Of a DNA stretch of 64,000 nt, positions 11,363 to 25,395 are shown one piece after another. The translations under genes were made by a program, and so were the position numbers. Position 1 is the first letter of the stretch. Each line of letters starts with the position of its first letter. The DNA is from Aureispira anguillae (GTDB taxonomy: Bacteria > Bacteroidota > Bacteroidia > Chitinophagales > Saprospiraceae): NCBI RefSeq assembly GCF_026000115.1, contig NZ_AP026867.1, positions 3,343,716-3,407,715 of the forward strand, in the 5' to 3' direction. The notes beneath the pieces are model-generated. The model saw nothing but the letters and a program-made list of their open reading frames with translations, searched no databases and had not been told where the DNA came from.

Positions 11363-11845
11363 ATGATCGATTATAATCAATTTCCCAACGAATCTAGAGT
11401 TTGGATTTATCAAAGTAACACTGCTTTTTCGGAGGAACAAGCCAACTTATTGCGCAAAAAATTACAACATTTTGTTGCTCAATGGCAGAGTCACGGTGCG
11501 CCTGTAAAAGCTTGGGCTGACATCAAATACAACCGCTTTATTGTTCTTATGGTTGATGAGAATCAAGAAGCACCTAGCGGTTGTTCTATTGATTCTTCTG
11601 TTGCTATGATCAAAGAAATTGAAGTCGAAATGAATGTTGACTTATTCGATCGACTCAACTTTGCCTATAAAACCGACTCGTCTACCGTTGAATCTGCTGA
11701 TCGTATTGATTTTTCTAATTTATATGCTTCAAGTATCATTAACGACCAAACTATTGTATTCAACAACTTAGTCAACACAAAAATTGACCTAGAAAATAAA
11801 TGGGAAGTTCCTTTAGCTGACTCTTGGCATGCCAATATGGTTTAA
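11363..11845 (+). CDS. Small conserved Bacteroidota protein (often labelled 'ABC transporter ATPase')
   Basis: 160 aa, starting 3 bp after the Fe-S gene. It begins FPNESRVWIYQSNTAFS and has a core (QWQSHGAPVKAWADIKYNRF, then DGCSID-like SGCSIDSSV). I recognise it as a widespread Bacteroidota protein that databases often call an ABC transporter ATPase. The sequence does not support that name: there is no Walker A, Walker B or signature motif and it is too short. The repeated coupling to CCG-domain genes suggests a redox or accessory role, which is inference. Function unknown. Confidence 0.75.
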   Translation: MIDYNQFPNESRVWIYQSNTAFSEEQANLLRKKLQHFVAQWQSHGAPVKAWADIKYNRFIVLMVDENQEAPSGCSIDSSVAMIKEIEVEMNVDLFDRLNFAYKTDSSTVESADRIDFSNLYASSIINDQTIVFNNLVNTKIDLENKWEVPLADSWHANMV

Positions 11846-12602: not shown

Positions 12603-15011
12603 ATGAATACACCATTATTCCTGTTGGTAGGAACAATGCTTCTTAGCTTATTCCTTAACCAACCTTCAATTAATTCCAATATTATGTCCTACAACAAAGA
12701 ACAAATCACTGCCATTAAGGAAGCTTACCTCAAACTCCAACGCCTTAACCAGCATTGTAAAAAACATCAGCTGCAAGTTTCCAACATTTTTTCCAAACAA
12801 GAGCTAAAGGAACTAAAAGAAGGAAAACTATTCTTACAACAAATACTCCAAAACCCTGAGGTGAAAGCAGCTGTTTTAGCTGATCTGCCTTTGACTTTAA
12901 AGGCTTTTGTGGAGAAGATTACGATTTGGATAAGAGATTTTAAAGTCGAACTTGAAACGATAGAGGATCAAGAAACTCTTCTGTCTGTAAAAACAATAAT
13001 AGGGTATTTAAAACCTAGTATTATTTCTGGGAAACTCCCTATCAGCCAACAAATTTGGCAGCCCATAGGCTCTGCTTTAGATGGCTTAGAGGAAAAGGCA
13101 ACTCCCAAAGCCCTTGCTGCTGCTATTATTCAAGGCTTGGATGCTTTTTCCGTAGATCTAAAAACGGAATATAAAACCAATAAAAAGGAGTTTTATTGTA
13201 AAATCAAACAACAGGATTTTGATGCGCTTATTATTCAGCCCAATGATTTTGTGCTTTGGTTGAATGAAGAAACAGCAAAAGAAGCCAAAGAGGCTGCAAA
13301 AGAAGCCAAAGAAGCTACACTAAGAGCAACGGAAAAAGCAGCAGAATCACTTAAAGATTTTGGTAAAGAACTAAAAGAGAGTCAAAAAGATGAAATTGCC
13401 AAATTAGAAGCCTTGGCTACCTATGGTGATACTAGTGATATAGAACTTTCTATATTGGATATTCGATCTTTAAAACAGAACCAAGAAATCATTAGCATGC
13501 CTTTTTATGGTTTAAATTATTGGAAAAACCTACAAAGCAAGGTCTTTTTTGCAATAGAGCAAGAAAAAAATATGATCACTCTTGGGCAAGCTAAAAATAT
13601 TGCAAAAAAAATATTAGAAACTTCTCTTCCCCCTTCTGAAATTGAAGCGCTCTATGAGGCGTATCTGAAAAAAGAAGGTTATGTAGGGCTTATGTATCCC
13701 TCTGGATTTGCAGCATGGTTTAACGATAGTCGCAGTAGATTAGACAGCAGTGCCTTCAAAAAAGAATTGGATACTTGGATTGATAAAATGCGAGGCTGTA
13801 TTGGCAAAAAGAAAGACCGTTTAAGAGAAAACAAACGGCTTTTTATGATTCGCCCCAAAGCCTTTATTGAGGAGTTGAAGCCTTTATTTAGTCAACTCTT
13901 AGATCCTATAGGTTCTAATCCTGGGGAACTGATATATGAAGCTATTGCCCATGAACTAGCGACAATAGAGCATCTACCCAAAGTAAGCATTGACCAAATT
14001 GATGAATTATGGCAAAAAGGACTGTCTAGATGTAGTATTGATGAATTTGCCAAAGATGCTTATACCCGAACGATTTTAAACCATGTAGAATATCAAGAGC
14101 AGGCTTTGGATGCAGCGGCTAATTTATTGCAGGCATTGCCCATTGATACCAATATTGTAGATGCGCTTTATCATGCACGATATATTACCAAGAGCTTACC
14201 CAAACCTGAAACGAATGGCAAAAAGCTCTTGTCAATCTTTAAATTGCAGGCAACCAATGGAAGAGCCCAAAGTTTAGAAATACACTTGGAGAATGGTCTA
14301 AGATTGTTGCCGCAAGAACTGAAAAATGTGGGGGCTTATATGCCAGTGCCTACTCAAGATGTGGAGTTGGCTAATGTCAAAAGTGACAGTTATTTGGTGG
14401 AACTCGAAAATGTGACGATTGGTAAAACAAGACAAGAAACCGAGGCGAATGAAACATTGGTGATTTATACGCCTATTACCTATAAACTAAATGTTCGTGA
14501 TACTTCTCAACAGACTGTTATCCAGGAACAAATGAAGTCAGCACTTAATATGCTTGACCTTAATGTCGGCGATCTTGTTACGGGAGGAGAACTCTCTAAA
14601 AAATTGGGCAAGGATAGTGCCTTGGGTGGGAAATTGTTGAATACAAATATTAGTATCTGTGGCGATGATTATGGTAATATTGAAAAAATTGAAGCCGAAT
14701 TTACACTTATGGGGATAACCTTTGTGGTTGGACATGGACGAAAAGGCTTTATTGCTCAATTTAAGAGTCCCTTTGCTCCAACGCCTGAAAAAAGACAGTT
14801 CACTTATGGAGACAGTCAATTTACGTTATACCTTTCTTGCACTTACAAAGGGGCATTGAGGTTTTTAACAACCAAACAATACGAAGTTGAAACAATTAAC
14901 GGACAACTTGGTATGGCAAAGGGCACTTATTCAACGGATAAGATGGAACTAAAGGAGTTTCATGGTTCGCCTTTCTTTTCTAAAATTAGAGTAGAAAATA
15001 TAGATAAGTAA
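12603..15011 (+). CDS. Unknown 802-aa protein with N-terminal hydrophobic segment and Ala/Lys/Glu coiled coil
   Basis: I do not recognise a family. The first ~25 residues (MNTPLFLLVGTMLLSLFLNQ) are hydrophobic and could be a signal peptide or anchor. An alternative start at Met28 (12684) would give a soluble protein. Residues ~222-275 are an Ala/Lys/Glu heptad-like coiled coil (KEAKEAAKEAKEATLRATEK). The N-terminal half is mostly helical and the last ~250 residues are beta-rich. Two small genes follow on the same strand: a coiled-coil protein 47 bp downstream (probable operon) and a membrane protein further on. The region is gene-poor and repeat-rich, suggesting accessory DNA. Confidence 0.7.
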   Translation: MNTPLFLLVGTMLLSLFLNQPSINSNIMSYNKEQITAIKEAYLKLQRLNQHCKKHQLQVSNIFSKQELKELKEGKLFLQQILQNPEVKAAVLADLPLTLKAFVEKITIWIRDFKVELETIEDQETLLSVKTIIGYLKPSIISGKLPISQQIWQPIGSALDGLEEKATPKALAAAIIQGLDAFSVDLKTEYKTNKKEFYCKIKQQDFDALIIQPNDFVLWLNEETAKEAKEAAKEAKEATLRATEKAAESLKDFGKELKESQKDEIAKLEALATYGDTSDIELSILDIRSLKQNQEIISMPFYGLNYWKNLQSKVFFAIEQEKNMITLGQAKNIAKKILETSLPPSEIEALYEAYLKKEGYVGLMYPSGFAAWFNDSRSRLDSSAFKKELDTWIDKMRGCIGKKKDRLRENKRLFMIRPKAFIEELKPLFSQLLDPIGSNPGELIYEAIAHELATIEHLPKVSIDQIDELWQKGLSRCSIDEFAKDAYTRTILNHVEYQEQALDAAANLLQALPIDTNIVDALYHARYITKSLPKPETNGKKLLSIFKLQATNGRAQSLEIHLENGLRLLPQELKNVGAYMPVPTQDVELANVKSDSYLVELENVTIGKTRQETEANETLVIYTPITYKLNVRDTSQQTVIQEQMKSALNMLDLNVGDLVTGGELSKKLGKDSALGGKLLNTNISICGDDYGNIEKIEAEFTLMGITFVVGHGRKGFIAQFKSPFAPTPEKRQFTYGDSQFTLYLSCTYKGALRFLTTKQYEVETINGQLGMAKGTYSTDKMELKEFHGSPFFSKIRVENIDK

Positions 15012-15058
15012 TAGGATATATATTATTTTTACCCCAACCTTTAAACAACTCATAATAT

Positions 15059-15322
15059 ATGCTAAACCAAAAATTGATAAATTTACAAAAGGCTTGTAAG
15101 GAATGGTTAGATGCTTATGATGGGCTCAAAGACCAGTCTGCTTATCAAGTAGCGTATGGAAAATATAAAGAACTAGAAGAATTCTGTGCAAATGTTTTGG
15201 ATTCCCAATCTAGTGCTATAAATAAAGAGATAGAAGAAATGGCACCAGAAGTTATGGAAGCACAGGATTTATTAAACGATTTTTTATTACAGTTAAAACA
15301 AGTCCAGTTACAGAAGGGATAA
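15059..15322 (+). CDS. Small helical protein, unknown function
   Basis: 87 aa, acidic and almost entirely helical (LQKACKEWLDAYDGLKDQ..., KELEEFCANVLDS, AQDLLNDFLLQLKQVQLQKG). It has no signal peptide or membrane segment. It starts 47 bp after the 802-aa gene and is probably cotranscribed with it, so it may be a partner of that protein's coiled coil; this is inference from position only. The ATG follows an AT-rich leader with no clear ribosome binding site, as is normal in Bacteroidota. Confidence 0.6.
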   Translation: MLNQKLINLQKACKEWLDAYDGLKDQSAYQVAYGKYKELEEFCANVLDSQSSAINKEIEEMAPEVMEAQDLLNDFLLQLKQVQLQKG

Positions 15323-15358
15323 ACTGTAATAGTTTTAGAACATAAGATTTAATTTTAA

Positions 15359-15525
15359 TAACGATTATCACGAATAGATTTTATGAGCAGAGAGATGTTC
15401 TGATTTTTCTCTTTAGCAAAGAAGCAAAAACGTACATCCTTGGAAAGGCTGTGCGTCTTTTGATGATGAAGATAAAGAGAAAAAGGCTACATCTATCCAT
15501 ACAACTTTATTCGTGATAATCGTTA
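15359..15525. mobile_element. MITE-like 167-bp element with perfect 18-bp terminal inverted repeats
   Basis: TAACGATTATCACGAATA (15359-15376) is repeated perfectly inverted at 15508-15525. Inside, further arms pair in nested order: AGATGT with ACATCT, TTTTTCTCTTT (15404-15414) with AAAGAGAAAAA (15475-15485), and CAAAAACG with CGTCTTTTG. The whole can fold into one long interrupted hairpin. It encodes no protein. It could be a miniature transposable element or a structured RNA. Confidence 0.6.
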
Positions 15526-15536
15526 ATACCTAACAA

Positions 15537-15585
15537 AGCTCTTTTTTAGGCTGATAGCAGCGCTATCAAGGCTCAAAAAGCTGCC
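15537..15585. repeat. Hairpin
   Basis: AGCTCTTTTTT...CTGATAGC / GCTATCAAG...CAAAAAGCT forms an imperfect stem directly after the 167-bp inverted-repeat element. It is probably part of the same repeat cluster. It is not positioned as a terminator for the small helical gene because the other element intervenes. Confidence 0.4.
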
Positions 15586-15703
15586 GATAGGGGCAAAATT
15601 CAAACATTTGCAGCTTGAAGATAAAATTTAAAGATGCTCTTAGTTCTTTGGCATCCCCAAATAAATTACCTATAAATTATTTTTCACGATAAAACACTAA
15701 AAC

Positions 15704-15979
15704 ATGAGTCTTTTTTATGCTGTATTAAGCTTGGTTATAAACTTAGTAATAATTTTAGCTTTTATGCTAATTATTAGAAAACTTACTTTATGGTATTGGC
15801 AAATTGATCGACTTGTAAAAGGGATAGAGGATATGAACGAGCTTGCTCTTTTAGTTTTACAAAAAGATCTGGAAGAAAAGAAAGTAACTGTTATTAATAT
15901 ACCAACAAACCGAGAGGTTGAATTAACAATAAAAGAATATTTAAATCATCCTAACAAGAAATCGTATAAACTTAAATAA
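15704..15979 (+). CDS. Small single-pass membrane protein
   Basis: 91 aa. Residues ~4-25 (YAVLSLVINLVIILAFMLII) form one membrane segment, followed by the motif LTLWYWQIDRLVKGIED and a charged helical cytoplasmic tail ending in basic residues. Short proteins with a TM segment followed by YWxI are common and uncharacterised in Bacteroidota. No function can be given. It lies between two inverted-repeat elements. Confidence 0.55.
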   Translation: MSLFYAVLSLVINLVIILAFMLIIRKLTLWYWQIDRLVKGIEDMNELALLVLQKDLEEKKVTVINIPTNREVELTIKEYLNHPNKKSYKLK

Positions 15980-16163
15980 AATCGTCCGAGTACTCGTAGC
16001 CATCGGTTTGTTTACTTTTTAATATGATTTTACCTCTTGGGGTAAAAAATTGATTAGTATTATTCTATAGGTGAAATATAAAACCGTTTTTCAATGGGTG
16101 CGGATGCCAAACAACTTAAGGAATGGACGGCTTTGGTGCATCCTGCTTTTCTTTTATAAAACT

Positions 16164-16322
16164 AAGTAGATGGACAAAATTAGTAGTTTAAAAATTGGAG
16201 TATATTTTTTTCGCTAACGACTTGCAAAACGTAGCTTTAGCGGGCTAAAGCGAGGCTTTTCAAGGAAGCTTAGCGGACAAAAGAGATTCAATTTAATGTT
16301 AATTATTTTTGTCCACCTACTT
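16164..16322. mobile_element. Second MITE-like element, about 159 bp, imperfect terminal inverted repeats
   Basis: AAGTAGATGGACAAAA (16164-16179) pairs with TTTTGTCCACCTACTT (16307-16322) with one mismatch. Nested inside are CGCTAA/TTAGCG, CTTGCAAAA/TTTTCAAG and a perfect GCTTTAGC / GCTAAAGC hairpin. Size and nesting resemble the 167-bp element at 15359, but the terminal arms differ, so it is a second family. Confidence 0.55.
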
Positions 16323-16981
16323 ACTTATTTGGACGACAATCGAGATATTGTGCCTCCTTATCAATATAAGTAAGTACCACAAGTAAATTTTTTTGAAAAG
16401 ACTCTCCCCCCTTCCCTAAAAGGGCAATCTGCTTCTCTAGGAAGCTATGAAAAATATAGAACACTTGGCATCTTTTTAAGCGCTTTGGAATGCTCAAAAT
16501 TAATGAGAAAAATAAATCTATAAAGCCAATATCTTGACAACGATAACAATACAAAAATCACTAAAATATTTTTTGTCACAGCCTAATCAAGCCCAATTTT
16601 AGAATGTATAAACTGCCATCAAACCCACCTAAATTATCCAAATTTAATATTGAAATGACTAATTTATGCATTCATTTTTACGCTAGAAGCCTTTTTTTTC
16701 GTAAAAAAAACGTTATTTTTTTATTAAAATCAAATTAAAATTTTACACAAAAAAAACAATTTTATTCGTAAATAATTGCCACTAAAAACTAAAATTACAG
16801 TTGACTATCAAGCTATTTAGTTCAAAAACCAATTACAAATTAACTTTGCATTTCATGTCACAAAAAGTCCAAAAAAAAGAAAAACCAACGGTAATACTTT
16901 TGTTTTTCTCCCATTAAATGATGTAAATTGAAATTCTAATACACATTCAATTATTTATTTAACACATAGGTAGCAACAGAT
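16323..16981. other. Gene-poor AT-rich region before the CHAT modules
   Basis: About 660 bp. A 77-codon minus-strand frame at 16321-16554 has no recognisable feature and starts inside the repeat arm, so I do not call it. The box TAACTTTG at 16841-16848 fits the Bacteroidota -7 consensus TAnnTTTG and could be the promoter for the first small beta-protein gene, but I see no good -33 TTG at the expected spacing. Confidence 0.4.
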
Positions 16982-17032: not shown

Positions 17033-17707
17033 ATGGCATTTATTCGTCGTGGTAAACTTAAAAAGAAGCAAACTATAGGTTATAAAGTAGTGGTAGTAGT
17101 AGGAGATGATAGCACTGAAAATTTAGTGAATACAGTAGATGTAGCTATCCCCACTGTAGAAGGACAACCCGTTCCCTCTCCCAATAACATGACATTGCCA
17201 CTAAAAGTAGTAAAAGAAAATGGCAACAAACGCTTTGTTTTTAGCGATTTGTCCTTTAGTGAAGATGCGGTTAATTATCCTTACGAGATGATTAGCACCA
17301 TGAAAGACAGCAACAACAAACAAGTTGGAGAGCCCCTTAAAGCCATTGTAGAAGTAGAAGACGATGGAGACAGTAGAGTACGTTCTGTTAGCATTCGTCA
17401 ATTGGACGAAACCAATTTTAGACTAAAAGCAGTTATTGTTGGCGATAGCGAAAATAATGTTGATTCTGTAGACATTATTTGTTCTGATTTCTCTGGACCA
17501 GAACCCATTCCTGTAGAGCTAACCTTAACCAATCCTAAAGTTATTGGTGGCAAAAAGGTATTTAAAAATAACACCTTCACTTTTGACGATCCTGCAGCTG
17601 CTGCCGATGAAGTATATGTAGTTATTGTTGATTTAAAAAACAAAGAAGGAGCTTCTATTGGCTCAACAGAATATACGGTTGTTGTCGAAGGTTTGGAAGA
17701 GGCATAA
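17033..17707 (+). CDS. Small beta-rich protein, two repeats; partner of CHAT protein 1
   Basis: 224 aa, no signal peptide. It consists of two related ~110-residue units. Unit 1 (about 1-112) has VVVVVGDDSTENLVNTVDV, IPTVEGQPVPSPNN and YEMISTMKDSNNKQVGEP. Unit 2 (about 113-224) has AVIVGDSENNVDSVDI, a GPEPIPVELTL segment and VYVVIVDLKNKEGASIGS. The pattern of alternating strands suggests an Ig-like beta-sandwich. The single-unit protein at 21712 is a clear paralogue and also precedes a CHAT gene. A terminator hairpin separates this gene from CHAT1 (319-bp gap), which would make this protein more abundant than the protease. Role unknown; substrate, activator or structural partner are possible. 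I recognise no named family. Confidence 0.75.
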   Translation: MAFIRRGKLKKKQTIGYKVVVVVGDDSTENLVNTVDVAIPTVEGQPVPSPNNMTLPLKVVKENGNKRFVFSDLSFSEDAVNYPYEMISTMKDSNNKQVGEPLKAIVEVEDDGDSRVRSVSIRQLDETNFRLKAVIVGDSENNVDSVDIICSDFSGPEPIPVELTLTNPKVIGGKKVFKNNTFTFDDPAAAADEVYVVIVDLKNKEGASIGSTEYTVVVEGLEEA

Positions 17708-17737
17708 ACAACACCAATCCTCCATTTAAGAAAAAAC

Positions 17738-17773
17738 AAAGCTATCTCCCAACCAATGAGATAGCTTTTTTTA
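17738..17773 (+). terminator. Terminator/attenuator between small beta gene 1 and CHAT1
   Basis: AAAGCTATCTC (17738-17748) pairs with GAGATAGCTTT (17758-17768), followed by seven T. The same stem sequence occurs after the second small beta gene at 22108. Confidence 0.85.
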
Positions 17774-18026
17774 TACTAGTTTAGCTTTTTAACGACACAT
17801 AATTTTTACAACTATAACCTTTGTTTTTTTTTATAAACGCCCCTACCCCACTGCCTTAATTTGATTCATCGATTCATTCATTTATTTTTATTAGTTCCTC
17901 CTTTTAATAAAAATAATATTTAGATTGTTAAAGCATCAAAATACGCCCCCAAAATTTAACATTAGTACAATTTTACGTATTTTCCCCAAGTTAGAACAAC
18001 ATTAAGACACTGCAAACATTCCTTCT

Positions 18027-21000
18027 ATGCGTTCCATTCTAAAAACTGGTCTTTTTTTCTGCATCTTTTTATTATTAATTGGTGGAATTTATGCTTTTCA
18101 AGAAGCTCCCCCAATAAATAATACCCTTCCTGTTGATTTGCAAATTTCAAAAAAAGAAGCAGAAGCCTTGGTTAATGAAGGTGCATGGGAAGAAGCCATC
18201 ACAATCTATAAAGAAGTACAAAAAAAATGCAAGGTACTTGGTTTAGAAGCAATTGCCATTGATTTGTATGAGGAATTATTAGCCATCACTATTCTTAGAG
18301 ATGATTTGGAAATTGTGGATAAAATTGCTGTCATCAACCAATGCAAAAAACAAGAAGAACATCCCAATTTTAAGGGCATTTACTATGGAGCTTTAGCGCA
18401 TTTATTTGCCTTCTATGGTGAAGTTGATTCTTTGAATAAATATTATTCGACTGCTTCTCAAATTTATACTCAAGAGAATCGATTTAAATTAGCAGGAAAT
18501 CTTAATGCTACCCTTGCGCTTGAATTTTATATGTTAGACGATTTGCAAGCTGCTAAAACTTTTTTGGAGCAAGCAGAACAAATCTTAAATGAACAATTAA
18601 AACCTCATCATTTAGATCTACCCAATATTTATAATGTTCAAACTTTAATTTATGGTGATTTAGGGGAATATGATAAAGCTTTAAAAAGTAATTTAATTAG
18701 TATAAAAATATTAGAAGAGGACAAACTAAGTCATGCTTTAGATTTAGCCTATGAATATAATAATTTAGCCACGATATATGGTTCCCTAAAGGATTATAAT
18801 AATTCTTTAAGTTATTATTTAAAAGCCTTACATTTAATTGAAGGTTCTAAAGATTACCCTAAAACTGAGTCTGCAAGCCTTATTTACAATATAGCTGCAA
18901 CATACTCTGAGCAAAATAATTTCAAAGCAGCAAAGCAGGCATCTCTTAAATCCTTATCTTACCTTGATTCCTCTAAAGAAGAAAATAAAGATGTTTTAGC
19001 AGATTACATTAATAATTATCATCAATTAGTTCGTTGCTATAGCCATTTTGGGGATTTAGATTCTGCTGAATTTTATATACAAAAAGCAGAACAAATAAAT
19101 AAAACTTTTCCTTATAGAATATCTAGAACCTATATTAATTATGCTCAAATTTCATTAGAGCAAAAAAAGTTCATTAACGCAAAAGAGTATACACTAAAAG
19201 CCCTTTCTAAGGGTTTAGAAACCTATGGAAACAAAAGTGAATTGGTCTCCAATGCCTATAATTTATTAAGCGATATAGCAACATCACAAAATAAAAATAA
19301 GGAGGCACTAGAATATGTTCAACAAGCTCTAGAAGCCATTAGCATTGATTTTTGTGATCCCAATGGGCTAAGCAATCCCAAGTTAGACAACATACTTTAT
19401 AAGGGAGAACTGCTATCTACATTACAACGCAAATTAGTGGTCTTAAAAAAACTCTATCAGCAAGAAACAACAACTGTAGATGCCAGCGCTATTTATGCCA
19501 GTGCCAAACTAGCAACAGAAACCCTAGAACAAATGAATCGAGGCATGAAAGATGTCAATTCTAAACGTTTTTGGCTGAACACAAAAGTAATCCCTCTATT
19601 TGAAGCAGCAATTTTAACTGCTTTGGAGATTGCTGAAAAAACAGGCGATGACAATTACATCAATGAAGCCTTTATTTTGTCCGAACGAAGCAAATCTATG
19701 CTTATGACGGATGCCATGCAAGAAGCCAATGCTTCTAATTTTGGAGGAGTGCCTGATAGTTTGTTAGAGCGTTTGCATTCGTTGCAAAAATCATTGGCAG
19801 AAGCCGAAAAAAAGCGTTTTGATGCCCATCTCGCTAAAGATTTAGAAACCGAAAAAGTGATGAAAGAGGTTATCTTTGATCATAAACATCATTTGGATCT
19901 ATTAAAACATAAATTTGAAAAGCAATATCCTAAATATTACGCACTAAAATATGAGACCTCTGTTGCTTCCATTGCTGACATTCAAAATGCATTAAGCGAA
20001 AAAACCACTTTTATTGAATTTTTTGAAGGAGAGGATAACATCTATGCCTTTTCAATTAATAAAGAAAGTGCTCATGTAGAAACCATCAAAAAAGAAGCAG
20101 ATTTCCAAATTACAATCTACAGTTTTCAACGTGCATTAATGAATTCCAAAGCATTCCAAAACAAACCTGGTATTGTTTATAATAAATTCATAAAAGAATC
20201 TCATTATTTTTATAACAAATTGCTTAAAAATTGCGTAAACAAACAAGCAGAACGTCTTATTATTGTTCCTGATGGTCTACTGGGGTATTTACCTTTTGAG
20301 GTTTTGCTAACCCACCCCATTACAGCCCTCAAACAAGGAACAGATAAAGGAGCTGATTTTTCGACGCTCCCCTATCTAATTCGTGATTATAAGATTAGCT
20401 ATAATTATTCTGGTAGCCTTTTAATTGCTCAACAAGCCAGCCAAAAAAATATTATTAATGGTAACATATTAGCTTTAGCTCCCTCTTATGCCGCCAAAAA
20501 AACTCCAGAATGGAGAGGCAAACGTGAAGTTGAATTGCGACAAAATTTAATTGAACTACATGGAGCCGAAAAAGAAGTGGCTAGACTAGAAGAGCTTTAT
20601 AATGGTAGTTTTCATATTGGAGAACAAGCCAATGAAGCTACTTTTAAAAATTGTGCTCACAAACATGGAATTTTACATTTGGCCATGCATGGCTTAGTTG
20701 ACAAAAAGAATCCAGAGTTTTCGGGTTTGGCTATGACAGAAGACATGAGTAAAACAGAAGACAACTTTTTATATGCTTACGAAATCAAACAATTAGGATT
20801 ACAAGCAGGGTTGGTTGTTCTTAGTGCTTGTGAAACTGGCATTGGAAAATACCAACGAGGCGAAGGTGTTGTAAGTATTGGTCGTGGTTTTATGTATGCA
20901 GGTGCCCCTGCCCTGTTAATGACACTTTGGAGCCTTAACGACCAATCTGGTGCTGTAATTATCGAGCAATTTTATAAAAATTTGAGCGAAGGCATAGAAA

Positions 21001-21218
21001 AAGATGAAGCAATTCGTCAAGCCAAATTATTTTACTTAAAACACTATCCAGCAGAATATACACATCCTTTTATGTGGGCTGCTTTTATTCAAGTTGGAGA
21101 TTACTCTAGTGTATCAATCAATCATAAAAGTGATTGGGAAATTTACTTAGGAATACTATTAATTGCCATCTTATCTGTTTTTCTAGGTATCAAATTGCGA
21201 AAAAAAGACATAAAGTAA
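18027..21218 (+). CDS. TPR-CHAT caspase-like protein, membrane-anchored (copy 1)
   Basis: 1063 aa. It has an N-terminal signal segment (LKTGLFFCIFLLLIGGIYAF), then tetratricopeptide repeats from ~35 to ~470 (for example AWEEAITIYKEVQKK, GEYDKALKSNLISIKIL, KDYNNSLSYYLKALHLI). A helical linker is followed by a CHAT domain from ~660 to ~1020. The caspase-fold dyad is intact: His888 in LHLAMHGLVD and Cys935 in VLSACETGIG, followed by RGEGVVSIGRGFMYAGAP. Residues ~1037-1055 form a C-terminal membrane segment with a basic tail. CHAT proteins are cysteine proteases, some activated by partner binding to TPRs. Topology suggests TPRs and protease face the periplasm. It is paralogous to the 22216 gene over its full length. 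Confidence 0.9.
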   Translation: MRSILKTGLFFCIFLLLIGGIYAFQEAPPINNTLPVDLQISKKEAEALVNEGAWEEAITIYKEVQKKCKVLGLEAIAIDLYEELLAITILRDDLEIVDKIAVINQCKKQEEHPNFKGIYYGALAHLFAFYGEVDSLNKYYSTASQIYTQENRFKLAGNLNATLALEFYMLDDLQAAKTFLEQAEQILNEQLKPHHLDLPNIYNVQTLIYGDLGEYDKALKSNLISIKILEEDKLSHALDLAYEYNNLATIYGSLKDYNNSLSYYLKALHLIEGSKDYPKTESASLIYNIAATYSEQNNFKAAKQASLKSLSYLDSSKEENKDVLADYINNYHQLVRCYSHFGDLDSAEFYIQKAEQINKTFPYRISRTYINYAQISLEQKKFINAKEYTLKALSKGLETYGNKSELVSNAYNLLSDIATSQNKNKEALEYVQQALEAISIDFCDPNGLSNPKLDNILYKGELLSTLQRKLVVLKKLYQQETTTVDASAIYASAKLATETLEQMNRGMKDVNSKRFWLNTKVIPLFEAAILTALEIAEKTGDDNYINEAFILSERSKSMLMTDAMQEANASNFGGVPDSLLERLHSLQKSLAEAEKKRFDAHLAKDLETEKVMKEVIFDHKHHLDLLKHKFEKQYPKYYALKYETSVASIADIQNALSEKTTFIEFFEGEDNIYAFSINKESAHVETIKKEADFQITIYSFQRALMNSKAFQNKPGIVYNKFIKESHYFYNKLLKNCVNKQAERLIIVPDGLLGYLPFEVLLTHPITALKQGTDKGADFSTLPYLIRDYKISYNYSGSLLIAQQASQKNIINGNILALAPSYAAKKTPEWRGKREVELRQNLIELHGAEKEVARLEELYNGSFHIGEQANEATFKNCAHKHGILHLAMHGLVDKKNPEFSGLAMTEDMSKTEDNFLYAYEIKQLGLQAGLVVLSACETGIGKYQRGEGVVSIGRGFMYAGAPALLMTLWSLNDQSGAVIIEQFYKNLSEGIEKDEAIRQAKLFYLKHYPAEYTHPFMWAAFIQVGDYSSVSINHKSDWEIYLGILLIAILSVFLGIKLRKKDIK

Positions 21219-21277
21219 ATATAACGGATTCTTCCCCTTTAAGAATCTCTATTTAGTAATACAAACTAACCCACTTA

Positions 21278-21562
21278 ATGATCTCTTTTAACAAGGGTAG
21301 CATCATCTATTTGCTATTCATTTACGTCCCGTATGCCGTATTATTGCCTCTACTCGTCCCACAGTACAAAGGCAATAAACAGTTTTTTTATGCCCAAAAA
21401 CAAGGGTTTTCTTTCGTTACTCAACTCTTAAGTAGTCACAATATTACCTCCTACCCTCATTTTGCCAAAGCCTTTCAATCAAACGGTTTTATACCTTCGG
21501 CTATTGCTTATTTTTTATCCGTAAGCATTTATTTTGAATATTTCTCACTTGAATTCATATAA
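21278..21562 (+). CDS. Doubtful small hydrophobic ORF
   Basis: 94 codons beginning 59 bp after CHAT1. It has a hydrophobic N-terminus (IIYLLFIYVPYAVLLPLLV) and no recognisable domain. It may be a real small membrane protein cotranscribed with CHAT1, or the decayed remains of one. The second module has no counterpart after its CHAT gene. The rest of the 493-bp gap to the next small beta gene shows no other feature. Confidence 0.3.
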   Translation: MISFNKGSIIYLLFIYVPYAVLLPLLVPQYKGNKQFFYAQKQGFSFVTQLLSSHNITSYPHFAKAFQSNGFIPSAIAYFLSVSIYFEYFSLEFI

Positions 21563-21711
21563 AGTCATCCTCCAATCTAAGGCAACAGATAACAACAGAT
21601 AAAACATAATTTATAACACAAGTAAACTATCTTTTTCACCAGCCCATTAAACTTATAAACCAAGGGCACCAACAATTAACACAATTTTTAACTTTTAAAT
21701 CCAAACCAAAT

Positions 21712-22056
21712 ATGCCAATTATAAGAAATATCAAAACTAAGCAGAAGAAAAATGGAACTAGTTATCAAGTAACTGTAACAGTAGGTGAAGATACTACCAA
21801 TAGTGTAAAGACCGTTGATGTTTATATTCCTGCTGTTTCGGGGCAACCTGATCCTGAACCTGAGAATGTTACCCTCAATTATTCGGGCACTAGTGGTGAA
21901 GATCGAATTTTTTCCTATGAAGACTTGGGCTTTAGTTCCAATGCAGCTGGATTGACCTATGAAATGACTGCTACGATGAAAAATAACACTGGTGGTACAA
22001 TAGGTACTCCTGTAGCAGAGCCTGTATTGGTTGAGGAATACAACGAAGAAGCATAA
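21712..22056 (+). CDS. Small beta-rich protein, one repeat; partner of CHAT protein 2
   Basis: 114 aa, no signal peptide. It aligns with unit 1 of the 224-aa protein at 17033: VTVTVGEDTTNSVKTVDV, IPAVSGQPDPEPENVTLN, and YEMTATMKNNTGGTIGTP against VVVVVGDDSTENLVNTVDV, IPTVEGQPVPSPNN, and YEMISTMKDSNNKQVGEP. It is thus a one-unit version of the same family. It lies 159 bp before CHAT2 with the same terminator stem between. The C-terminus is acidic (VEEYNEEA), like that of the other copy (VEGLEEA). Function unknown. Confidence 0.75.
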   Translation: MPIIRNIKTKQKKNGTSYQVTVTVGEDTTNSVKTVDVYIPAVSGQPDPEPENVTLNYSGTSGEDRIFSYEDLGFSSNAAGLTYEMTATMKNNTGGTIGTPVAEPVLVEEYNEEA

Positions 22057-22107
22057 AAACATCAAATTAAGCTTCTTTTTTGAAGTTTATTTAAAATAAT
22101 TTTCAAT

Positions 22108-22138
22108 AAGCTATCTCATTTTTTGAGATAGCTTTATA
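22108..22138 (+). terminator. Terminator/attenuator between small beta gene 2 and CHAT2
   Basis: AAGCTATCTCA (22108-22118) pairs with TGAGATAGCTT (22124-22134). The stem matches the hairpin at 17738 base for base over AAGCTATCTC. The trailing T-run is weaker here (TTTATATTT), so read-through into CHAT2 may be greater. Confidence 0.75.
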
Positions 22139-22215
22139 TTTACTACCTATCCCCAAATGTAGACCTAAAACTCCAATGCTTCCCCTTTTCTTTCGAAAAT
22201 AAAAGCACATCCTAT

Positions 22216-25200
22216 ATGAGCAACTTGGCTACCATAGCACTACTTTTTATTTTTTTTTTCTTATCTATTGAAAAAAATCATGCCTATCAAACCAATCCAT
22301 CAATACTTCCCACCTCTTTACAAGTTTTAAAGTCAAAAGCAGAACACCTAAACAATGATGGATTGTGGGATGAATCTATTGCATTGTATCAAAACATTCA
22401 AGAACAATGTTATGCGCTAGAATTGAAAGCGTTAGGAATTGACTTATACGAGTATATTTTTGTTGTTACTGTATTAAGAGAAGATCACGATTTGGAGGAC
22501 AAGCTAAATTTCATTGAACAATGCAGTGCCAAAGAAACACATCCTGATTTCTTAGGGCTTTATTATGGAGCTATTGCTCATGCCTATATTTATTATGGCG
22601 AGATAGATTCTATGAATAAATATTATGATTTAGCTTACGCCCTTTATACCAACAAGCAAAAGCATTTGCAAGCCACCAACTTAAATGTAACTATTGCGAC
22701 CGAATATTACTTTTTAGGTGAGTTGATTGCCGCTAAAGAATATATCCAAAAAGCTGAGAAACTCTTGTATGAAAAGCTAGAACCCCTCCAACTTGATGTT
22801 CCTAGTATTTATACGATACAAACGGCCATCTACACAGAGTTGGGTGAATACAATAAGGCACTAAAAAGCAACTTAAAAAGTATCCAAATTTACGAAGCCG
22901 ATAACACTACTCGAAGTCTCGATTTAGCTTATCAATACAGCAATCTTGCCACTACTTATAGCGCCCTAAAGGATTTTGAAAACTCCCTAAGCTATTATCA
23001 AAAAGCACTGTCTTTAATCAAAGACATAGAAGACGATTCTGAGATAGAAATTGCCAGTTTGATGTATAATATTGGAGCTACTTACCTCAAACAAGGAAAT
23101 CACCATGCTGGGAAAGAGGCTTTCCTAAAATCGTTCTCAATTCTAATAAAATCAAAAGACATGACGGACGATATGAAACAGGACTTTATTAATAATTGCC
23201 ATCTTTTAGAAGATTGTTATCGCTACTTTAATCAACAAGATTCTGCCTTGTATTATCTGAAAAAAGCAGAAGAATTGAATAAAACATTTCCTTATAGAAT
23301 TGCTTTTACTTATGAGTGCTACAGCAATATTTATTTGGGGCAAAATAATTTTGTTAAAGCTAAAATATACAGTGAGAAATCATTAGAAGCTGGACTTGCT
23401 AGCTATGGAGAAAAAAGTGAAATTGTTCGAGATGCCTATCGTTCACTCGCAAAAATAGCAGCAACTCAACGCAATTACAAGGAAGCATTGTTTTACAATC
23501 AAAAAGTATTAGAAAGCTTAAGTTTTAATTTTTCAGACGAAAACGGGCTTTCTAATCCTAAGTTAAACGACGTTTTTAGAAAAGGTGACTTAGTGAAGGA
23601 TTTAAGTTTTAAAATGCAATACTTAGAGCTGCTTTATTTGAGAGATGATGAATTTGTATCGGCAGAAGACTTATATGCAACGGCTAAATTAGCAACCGAA
23701 AATCTAGAATTGCTGAATAAAAGTCTAAAGAATAAAAATTCGCAGCTCTATTGGCTCAACAAAGAGGCAATTCCCCTCTTCGAAAAAGCAATTCAAATTG
23801 CTATTGGTATTTATAACAAAACTAAAAACCCCAAATATCTAAATGAGGCTTTTATGCTCTCTGAACATAGTAAATCCATGTTAATGATGGGGGCTTTACA
23901 AGAAAATAATGCCTCTAGTTTTGGGGGAATTCCCAACAAATTGGTTCATCGAGAAAAAGAGCTTCAAAAACTTTTGGCCGAAGCAGAAAAAAAACGATTT
24001 GATGCCAATCTCATTGGGGACTTAGACATCGTAAAACATCAAGATAGTCTTATATTCAATTATCACCATCAGGTAGATGCTTTAATCTTTCAATTTGAAA
24101 CAGAGTATCCCAAATATTATCAACTAAAATATGCGGCACAAGTTGCAGATATAAATAGCATTCAAACTACCTTAGATGATAGTACAACGTTTATCGAGTA
24201 CTTTGAAGGCAAAGCAAAAATTTATGCATTTACAATAACCAAAAATCAAGCTTTTGTTCACGCTATAGAGAGAACACCATCTTATAATCGAGATATTCAC
24301 GATTTCCAGTCGATGCTTACCAATATTAAAGAAGCTGCCGATAAACCTGTTAATGTTTATAATAAATTTATAGCAGAGGCTCATAACCTCTATAATAAAC
24401 TATTAAAAAACAGCTTAGTTCCTCATAATAATCGACTTATTATAGTCCCTGATGGGCAACTCGGCTACATTCCTTTTGATGTCTTTTTGCCAAAAAAAAT
24501 AGCACCTATTTTTAATCAAGCAGAGAATACAATCAATTTTTCTATCCTTCCTTATCTCATTCGAGATTACAAAATCAGTTATAATTATTCTGCAACACTT
24601 TTAACCAGTTCTCCCATTCGTTCCAAGCAGTATAAAAATGGATACGTACTGGCATTAGCTCCTAGTTATACGAACAAATCGACTCCTAGTTGTCGAAGCC
24701 AATACGAACAAAAGCTGCGTAAGGAACTCGTAGAGTTGCCTGGTGCTACCCGTGAATTGGAATTTCTGAAATGGACCTTTAATGGCTGTTTTCTATCTAG
24801 TGCTGAGGCGAATGAAGCCAATTTTAAGCAAAATGCACCTAATTGTAGCGTATTGCACCTTGCCGTTCATGGTTTGGTTGATAACAACAAACCTGAGCTT
24901 TCTGGTTTAGCACTGGAAGAGGATATGGGCAAGAAAGAAGATAATATTTTGTATGCTTATGAAATCAAACAATTGGATTTACAGGCGGAGTTGGTGGTGC
25001 TATCTGCTTGTGAAACAGGAATTGGAAAATATCAACGAGGCGAAGGAGTGCTTAGTATTGGTCGTGGTTTTATGTATGCAGGTGTTCCTAGCTTGCTCAC
25101 TACTTTATGGAGCTTAAATGACTATTCTAGTGATAAAATTATCAAACAATTTTATACCAATCTAAGTCAGGGAATGAAAAAAGATGAAGCCATACAACAA

Positions 25201-25395
25201 GCCAAACTTCATTATCTAAATGGTCACAATGGTTTATCTGCCTACCCTGCTCTTTGGGCCTGTTTTATACAAGTTGGAGATTATAGCCCCATTCAAATCA
25301 GTAAAAAGCCTTGGCTATTATATGGTATTTTAGGATTCATTTCCTTGCTAATAATAGGTCGTCTATTGTTCAAAAAAATAAAAAGAAAAGATTAA
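22216..25395 (+). CDS. TPR-CHAT caspase-like protein, membrane-anchored (copy 2)
   Basis: 1059 aa with the same plan as the 18027 gene. It has an N-terminal hydrophobic segment (LATIALLFIFFFLSIEKNHA), TPRs from ~35 to ~470 (GEYNKALKSNLKSIQIYEAD, KDFENSLSYYQKALSLI), a helical linker, a CHAT domain from ~655 to ~1015, and a C-terminal membrane segment (WLLYGILGFISLLIIGRLLF) with a basic tail. The dyad is His885 (LHLAVHGLVD) and Cys932 (VLSACETGIG); the 47-residue His-Cys spacing is identical in both copies. The two CHAT proteins look about half identical, so the duplication is not recent. The stop codon overlaps the next start (TAATG), so the pseudouridine synthase is translationally coupled. 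Confidence 0.9.
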   Translation: MSNLATIALLFIFFFLSIEKNHAYQTNPSILPTSLQVLKSKAEHLNNDGLWDESIALYQNIQEQCYALELKALGIDLYEYIFVVTVLREDHDLEDKLNFIEQCSAKETHPDFLGLYYGAIAHAYIYYGEIDSMNKYYDLAYALYTNKQKHLQATNLNVTIATEYYFLGELIAAKEYIQKAEKLLYEKLEPLQLDVPSIYTIQTAIYTELGEYNKALKSNLKSIQIYEADNTTRSLDLAYQYSNLATTYSALKDFENSLSYYQKALSLIKDIEDDSEIEIASLMYNIGATYLKQGNHHAGKEAFLKSFSILIKSKDMTDDMKQDFINNCHLLEDCYRYFNQQDSALYYLKKAEELNKTFPYRIAFTYECYSNIYLGQNNFVKAKIYSEKSLEAGLASYGEKSEIVRDAYRSLAKIAATQRNYKEALFYNQKVLESLSFNFSDENGLSNPKLNDVFRKGDLVKDLSFKMQYLELLYLRDDEFVSAEDLYATAKLATENLELLNKSLKNKNSQLYWLNKEAIPLFEKAIQIAIGIYNKTKNPKYLNEAFMLSEHSKSMLMMGALQENNASSFGGIPNKLVHREKELQKLLAEAEKKRFDANLIGDLDIVKHQDSLIFNYHHQVDALIFQFETEYPKYYQLKYAAQVADINSIQTTLDDSTTFIEYFEGKAKIYAFTITKNQAFVHAIERTPSYNRDIHDFQSMLTNIKEAADKPVNVYNKFIAEAHNLYNKLLKNSLVPHNNRLIIVPDGQLGYIPFDVFLPKKIAPIFNQAENTINFSILPYLIRDYKISYNYSATLLTSSPIRSKQYKNGYVLALAPSYTNKSTPSCRSQYEQKLRKELVELPGATRELEFLKWTFNGCFLSSAEANEANFKQNAPNCSVLHLAVHGLVDNNKPELSGLALEEDMGKKEDNILYAYEIKQLDLQAELVVLSACETGIGKYQRGEGVLSIGRGFMYAGVPSLLTTLWSLNDYSSDKIIKQFYTNLSQGMKKDEAIQQAKLHYLNGHNGLSAYPALWACFIQVGDYSPIQISKKPWLLYGILGFISLLIIGRLLFKKIKRKD

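Follow-up and report, generated by a model that had tools for sequence, protein, structure and literature searches.

Within a 64,000-nucleotide stretch of the 7.79-Mb genome of Aureispira anguillae (contig positions 3343716-3407715, hereafter the window), two successive modules each combine a small gene, here called beta, with a gene for a tetratricopeptide-repeat (TPR) protein that carries a C-terminal CHAT protease domain. In this group of filamentous bacteria from the sea, beta and CHAT genes are linked in two genera, and in one pair of near-identical genomes a block of strongly divergent sequence covers the first beta gene and most of the TPR half of its neighbouring protease, the protease half being almost unchanged. 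The beta domain is confidently predicted to adopt an immunoglobulin (Ig)-like sandwich. In the explanation that we favour, and to which we give an even chance, beta is the specificity partner of the TPR half in a co-inherited recognition pair, and its binding sets the activity of the protease.

An earlier note on this DNA had described a tandem order of small beta gene, hairpin and TPR-CHAT gene, and this order holds for both modules (17033-21218 and 21712-25395), which comprise the following features:

17033..17707, + strand: beta1, 224 amino acids; two tandem predicted Ig-like domains (approximately 17033-17374 and 17375-17704), no signal
17739..17767, + strand: hairpin 1, in the gap between beta1 and CHAT-A; terminator-like, AAGCTATCTC...GAGATAGCTT followed by a T run
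18027..21218, + strand: CHAT-A, 1063 amino acids; from the N terminus, a signal-like segment, a TPR solenoid (residues ~36-437), the CHAT domain (737-1025; catalytic pair His888/Cys935), a membrane segment (~1039-1057) and a basic C-terminal tail
18027..19127, + strand: CHAT-A codons 1-367, by homology the part that diverges with beta1 between the sister genomes G003 and G008
21712..22056, + strand: beta2, 114 amino acids; single domain, predicted seven-stranded Ig-like sandwich
22108..22134, + strand: hairpin 2, in the gap between beta2 and CHAT-B; terminator-like, with a weak T run
22216..25395, + strand: CHAT-B, 1059 amino acids; architecture of CHAT-A, CHAT domain (722-1022), His885 and Cys932

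The larger protein, beta1, is a tandem double of the ~112-residue domain of beta2, the domain profile matching it twice, which corrects the earlier description.

Homologues of beta were searched with the single protein against 60 genomes, including the window genome, and with profiles against overlapping sets of 298 family, 395 phylum and 396 order genomes; two weak matches inside frames of more than 2500 amino acids (G046 and G010; E values of 5e-4 and 3e-3) were excluded from all counts. Of the 14 beta genes found in total, 10 immediately precede a TPR-CHAT gene, two (G006 and G106) are cut by a contig end and two lie elsewhere. The earlier expectation that beta homologues would usually lie next to CHAT genes was thus borne out, with 10 of the 12 beta genes that have a visible downstream neighbour adjoining a TPR-CHAT gene. 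The window genome, G003 and G008 contribute two linked genes each, and G001, G002, G007 and G317 one each; G317 belongs to another genus, and its CHAT gene is cut by the contig end after the TPR part. In a third genus (G106), beta stands at a contig end and the closest CHAT relative (48% identity, 842 bits) starts at the first bases of another contig, an arrangement that suggests beta-CHAT adjacency without showing it.

Within the genus, beta is present in seven of nine genomes. The two that lack it (G004 and G005) also have no close CHAT relative, the best scoring 478 and 462 bits, respectively, at 33% identity, and the four other beta-bearing genus genomes in the same search reach at least 723 bits. 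Across the 298 family genomes, all six with a CHAT relative of at least 723 bits possess beta; the E-value limit of 1e-140 for CHAT relatives, scored as the best two candidates per genome, was set post hoc, and G004 (E 2.1e-143) would have passed it had it been in the sample, the next paralogue group lying at 462-478 bits (G005 and G004). Two further family genomes have beta, G317 with its fragmented CHAT gene and G063 with a lipoprotein form. The window genome contains 30 CHAT matches yet it has just two beta genes, each of which immediately precedes a CHAT gene, and among the open reading frames (ORFs) in the stretches around its other CHAT matches the domain profile detected no beta relative.

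A CHAT tree of 41 rows, based on the last 430 residues, places the 11 beta-linked or probably linked sequences and three type C rows in one clade (support 99/92). Not included in the tree are a truncated duplicate entry, the divergent CHATs of L054 and L065, and the G317 fragment, which covers the N-terminal part; midpoint rooting serves for drawing only. Type C denotes a CHAT gene located 38 bp after CHAT-B in G003 and G008; a row of G006 is also read as type C, its upstream sequence ending in the tail of a B-type protein. Distances between beta proteins correlate with those between CHAT proteins (r of 0.83, Mantel p of 0.0002), a relation that common descent by itself would produce and that was therefore given no weight as a sign of binding.

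The genomes G003 and G008 are near-identical (~99% where compared; 99.6% of nucleotides in one aligned pair of 6-kb stretches). The 4 kb upstream of the locus and the 108 bp before beta1 are both 99% identical, and this level holds until a few bases from the beta1 start codon. Nucleotide identity then drops to 52-73% across beta1, the intergenic gap and the greater part of CHAT-A's TPR half, amounts to 85% in the last 150-nucleotide window of the block, and returns to 98-100% past CHAT-A codon 367. Synonymous divergence (dS) is 1.1-1.6 inside the block versus 0.012-0.019 after it. At the amino-acid level, identity is 54% for beta1, 61% for CHAT-A codons 1-370 and, to two decimals, 1.00 from codon 371 to the end, where one replacement is found in 691 codons; the protease half is 99.9% identical. 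As a control, 27 other CHAT pairs of the same two genomes, each gene taken as the longest ORF of a 6-kb stretch, share 97.6-100% of their N-terminal 370 residues, the least similar stretch of 100 residues standing at 91%, and 98.6-100% of their last 430; an upstream identity of 0.74 in this set (L204/L205) reflects an indel rather than divergence.

The two further CHATs of the locus vary mainly in codons 151-480 (dS of 0.43 in CHAT-B and 0.38 in CHAT-C), with values of 0.13 and 0.07 in codons 1-150 and of 0.014 and 0.017 beyond codon 480, where one and two replacements occur, respectively. Variation of the TPR region is therefore present in all three CHATs of the locus versus none of the 27 other pairs. 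In module B, raised divergence also starts at the beta gene (window identity of 0.90 and dS of 0.24 at beta2).

For the beta1 protein of G008, the nearest relative comes from another species, G006 (77% identity, grouped at 100/100), a value similar to that of fast flanking proteins between those species (77-82%). The G003 protein, at 54% to its G008 counterpart, is 63% identical to beta1 of the window. A beta1 tree holding G003 with G008, a pair chosen for the constraint since the genomes are sisters, was rejected (p-AU of 4.5e-5). For one genome pair, a locus at a fixed position thus carries strongly divergent alleles although the genomes are near-identical, with species crossing evident for beta1 and marginal for the TPR half. 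We read this pattern as the exchange of old alleles at the locus, because the divergent block with its high dS sits in near-identical genomes.

Two other sources of the variation were considered and rejected. Gene conversion among A, B and C does not account for the variable patches, since every segment of B and C has its orthologue as nearest relative. A diversity-generating retroelement target shares with this locus a diversified sensor part beside a constant effector part, but the divergence here involves a whole block and saturated synonymous sites rather than adenine-directed mutation of first and second codon positions: the proportion of synonymous differences (pS) is 0.58-0.66 in the block, and 132 synonymous differences fall in CHAT-A codons 31-370 (a reverse transcriptase and a template repeat were not searched for).

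The predicted model of beta2, computed from a 15-row alignment, comprises seven strands over 114 residues, with a predicted local distance difference test (pLDDT) score of 94.7. A Foldseek search of the PDB with this model returned only generic Ig-like or sandwich domains (best E value of 1.9e-3, none at or below 0.001), and the best profile match to PDB chains had an E value of 0.19. The beta proteins match no family above the curated cut-offs of Pfam or NCBIfam and none in PADLOC, and score only weakly against PHROGs (none at E < 0.02); assignment to a known inhibitor, phage or defence family was rejected on this basis. A gasdermin identity was likewise rejected, there being no Pfam gasdermin match and beta2 being a single predicted Ig-like domain of seven strands and 114 amino acids.

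Two distant homologues (G063 and G629) begin with a lipoprotein-type signal, as judged by eye from their translations, which suggests that the beta domain can work outside the inner membrane. The earlier note had pointed out the puzzle of a signal-less beta beside a periplasmic-looking CHAT protein; these homologues ease it in part, the Aureispira forms being still signal-less. The lipoprotein-like relatives, at L115:4881-5765 and L101:7452-8414, have two domains and come from distant genomes, with no CHAT relative nearby.

Both CHAT proteins of the window score far above the curated CHAT cut-off of 24 bits (PF12770; 174.9 bits and E 3.2e-51 for CHAT-A, 183.9 bits and E 5.8e-54 for CHAT-B) and possess N-terminal TPRs (TPR_12; E values of 2.7e-25 and 1.1e-21, respectively). 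His888 and Cys935 are invariant across 12 aligned members. The dyads proposed earlier (His888/Cys935 and His885/Cys932) were confirmed, but their 47-residue spacing is not specific, as 16 of 27 other CHAT ORFs of the window genome share it by regular expression. The proposed N-terminal export segment and C-terminal membrane segment with basic tail are similarly visible by hydropathy in the full-length linked CHATs (the C terminus of G007 is weaker), but 24 of the 27 other ORFs also have a C-terminal hydrophobic peak of at least 1.2. The table of 27 ORFs excludes one truncated duplicate entry, and a thirtieth, weak CHAT match lies outside it. Spacing and membrane tail, being common to other paralogues, were rejected as evidence for the beta/CHAT pair. 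Given these segments, the positive-inside rule places the TPR and CHAT parts outside the inner membrane, and the linked CHATs are apparently exported. In the CHAT-A model the TPR part is confident; residues 792-974 have a pLDDT below 50, the CHAT domain is poor and the geometry of the dyad is not readable.

G003 and G008, like the window genome, hold 30 CHAT matches each, and in the window genome most of the 30 combine a signal-like N terminus, TPRs and a C-terminal membrane segment. In G106 and G317 (L147:2739-4259 and L148:4895-6448), the CHAT fragment of the linked clade is followed by a serine beta-lactamase-like protein of ~510 amino acids (PF00144) with a lipoprotein-like start.

Two copies of the hairpin pattern are found in the window, whereas 100 shuffles gave none. 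All 10 beta-CHAT gaps contain a stem flanked by a T-rich stretch, and in no gap did any of 20 shuffles score as well. The gaps after beta2 (window, G003 and G008) have a weak T run, and in the gap of G001 the best-scoring stem is longer and lacks a clean T run, a second stem of the common motif being visible in the same gap. A strict 10-letter version of the motif is found at four places genome-wide, one of them the beta1 gap. Since every gap read contains a terminator-like stem and the 10-letter motif occurs at four places, the letters look inherited with the module and the structure general; a special regulatory element was therefore rejected. Because the stem separates the beta gene from the CHAT gene, beta is probably made in excess over CHAT.

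In the explanation that we favour, the small Ig-like protein, with one or two domains, would pair specifically with the N-terminal TPR half of the CHAT protein encoded next to it, and its binding would set the activity of the exported, membrane-anchored cysteine protease. A matched beta would either restrain or license the protease; restraint is favoured, with beta in excess, because of the terminator-like stem between the genes. Specificity would reside in beta and the TPR half, exchangeable as a unit, with the protease half constant and the diversity perhaps selected for recognition. Beta1 has diverged in step with the TPR half, whereas the catalytic half has not, as would be expected if its partner were the sensor half. 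The earlier note had cast beta as substrate, activator or anchor of CHAT. That beta belongs with CHAT gains support from the linkage in two genera (with a third suggested), the single linked clade and the joint divergence, and the substrate role loses support from the same pattern in beta1; beta would probably regulate or inhibit the protease as part of a recognition system whose alleles are diversified by exchange. The further proposal that duplication of the module gave separate specificities is plausible.

Several observations weigh against this explanation. The exchange argument draws on one sister genome pair, and the case for beta and TPR changing together comes mostly from module A, because the beta2 protein is still 95% identical while the TPR region of CHAT-B differs. 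Under the same constraint as for beta1, the tree of the TPR half gave a marginal result (p-AU of 0.05) and does not clearly reproduce the beta1 tree. The ratio of nonsynonymous to synonymous divergence (dN/dS) is below 1 in every region measured, and the changes are not enriched on one face of the TPR helices (p of 0.21). CHAT-C has no beta of its own, and co-inheritance has exceptions in two beta homologues (G063 and G629), which have no relative of the linked CHATs within the 19.0 and 17.0 kb read, respectively. By eye, the Aureispira beta proteins contain no export-signal segment. Finally, a single import of foreign DNA across both gene parts would mimic the CHAT-A pattern, but not the separate patches of CHAT-B and CHAT-C.

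Such an import, as neutral divergence, forms part of an account in which beta performs a plain housekeeping task, inhibiting or chaperoning the protease so that it does no harm until it is exported. The missing signal of beta would then be explained: staphostatins and Spi, which are encoded beside exported cysteine proteases, are thought to be cytosolic, and in Bacteroides small inhibitor-like proteins, some of them lipoproteins, are found beside exported cysteine proteases of the C10 family (available part of PMC3462683). The resemblance to these proteins and to Bacteroides Bti/Bfi lies in a small protein beside an exported cysteine protease (export here by hydropathy) and in the occurrence of signal-less and lipoprotein-like forms. 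However, those proteases have the papain fold, whereas a CHAT protease and an Ig-like protein with no family match are found here, and beta has no sequence match to an inhibitor family. By itself, moreover, such an inhibitor gives no account of TPR variation in three neighbouring CHATs versus none of 27 other pairs, and we regard this account as unlikely. A substrate role, in which the activated CHAT protease cuts its small neighbour as Csx29 cuts Csx30, has a precedent in that a TPR-CHAT protease encoded near its own substrate is known (available part of PMC10028731), and beta is encoded in front of CHAT and, with the stem between them, is perhaps in excess. This pair from type III-E CRISPR (Craspase) shares with the modules described here the TPR and CHAT architecture, the His/Cys pair and a gene linked to that of a protein partner; it differs in that Csx29 works in complex with Cas7-11, whereas here a signal-like N terminus, a membrane tail and an Ig-like partner of 112-227 amino acids are present. 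Because Csx30 binds only the CHAT2 domain of Csx29 (same part of PMC10028731), a substrate is expected to track the catalytic half, but beta1 changes with the TPR half. The beta2 domain is predicted to be a compact sandwich (pLDDT of 94.7) with no long disordered linker, and two beta homologues have no neighbouring CHAT, all of which makes a substrate role quite improbable.

Phage defence, with the TPR half sensing an invader, beta acting as guard or decoy and an arms race driving allele exchange, would fit the function of a TPR-CHAT protein in a CRISPR system (available part of PMC10028731) and the diversification of putative sensors in multicellular bacteria, there by retroelements (available part of PMC10907252). 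No PADLOC model matched any of the six locus proteins (CRISPR arrays, and cas genes elsewhere in the window, were outside the search), the locus keeps its position among ordinary genes across the relatives read, and the CHAT protein looks periplasmic; we consider this reading very unlikely.

The recognition pair could also be carried further, to a bacterial self/non-self (kind-recognition) system in which a strain-matched Ig-like tag and the TPR half of an exported CHAT are kept diverse by allele exchange, a proposal that is speculative and in our view doubtful. If it were true, contact or material transfer between unlike strains would free the protease, and the locus would parallel, in bacteria, the incompatibility loci of fungi that involve CHAT proteins and gasdermins. 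In the available parts of the sources, hetB, an incompatibility locus of Aspergillus fumigatus, is reported to encode a CHAT protease in one allele and a short protein in the other, and alleles of several het loci cross species (PMC11138114); in Podospora, a TPR-bearing CHAT protease activates gasdermin (review, PMC12881547). The likeness to hetB is a CHAT protease at a locus with strongly divergent alleles; hetB differs in being fungal and tied to an incompatibility phenotype, whereas sequence alone, from two sister genomes, is compared here. With beta as specificity partner, one subgroup among many CHATs gains a defined small partner and a map of possible specificity, and the recognition reading, if true, would tie a caspase-like protease to telling own kind from others in multicellular bacteria. 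In searches of the open-licence literature, no paper on the beta/CHAT pair was found, nor any pairing the CHAT domain with Saprospir.

The locus is syntenic among the relatives read and lies between ordinary genes, flanked on the left by a cysteine-rich iron-sulphur-type gene (PF02754) and a 160-amino-acid gene and on the right by a pseudouridine synthase gene. Between the modules, a 94-amino-acid ORF (21278-21562) has, by eye, no counterpart at the same place in G008. In G008, the assembly breaks ~100 bp upstream of beta1 (contigs C11 and C49; L048:1-87 and L210:1-90) at what resembles an insertion element: the two contigs have an 8-bp target repeat, AATTACAA, in common, and their inverted ends are alike. 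The G003 site is unbroken. In G002, G003, G006 and G007, where the interval lies on one contig, the 160-amino-acid gene is within ~0.5 kb of beta. The window has ~5 kb extra between this gene (end at 11842) and beta1, including genes of 802, 87 and 91 amino acids at 12603-15979 with no family above cut-off. Two imperfect inverted repeats (15356-15528 and 16140-16346), with arms of 26 and 43 nucleotides and 121 nucleotides between the arms in both, sit in gene-poor sequence and are possibly small non-autonomous elements.

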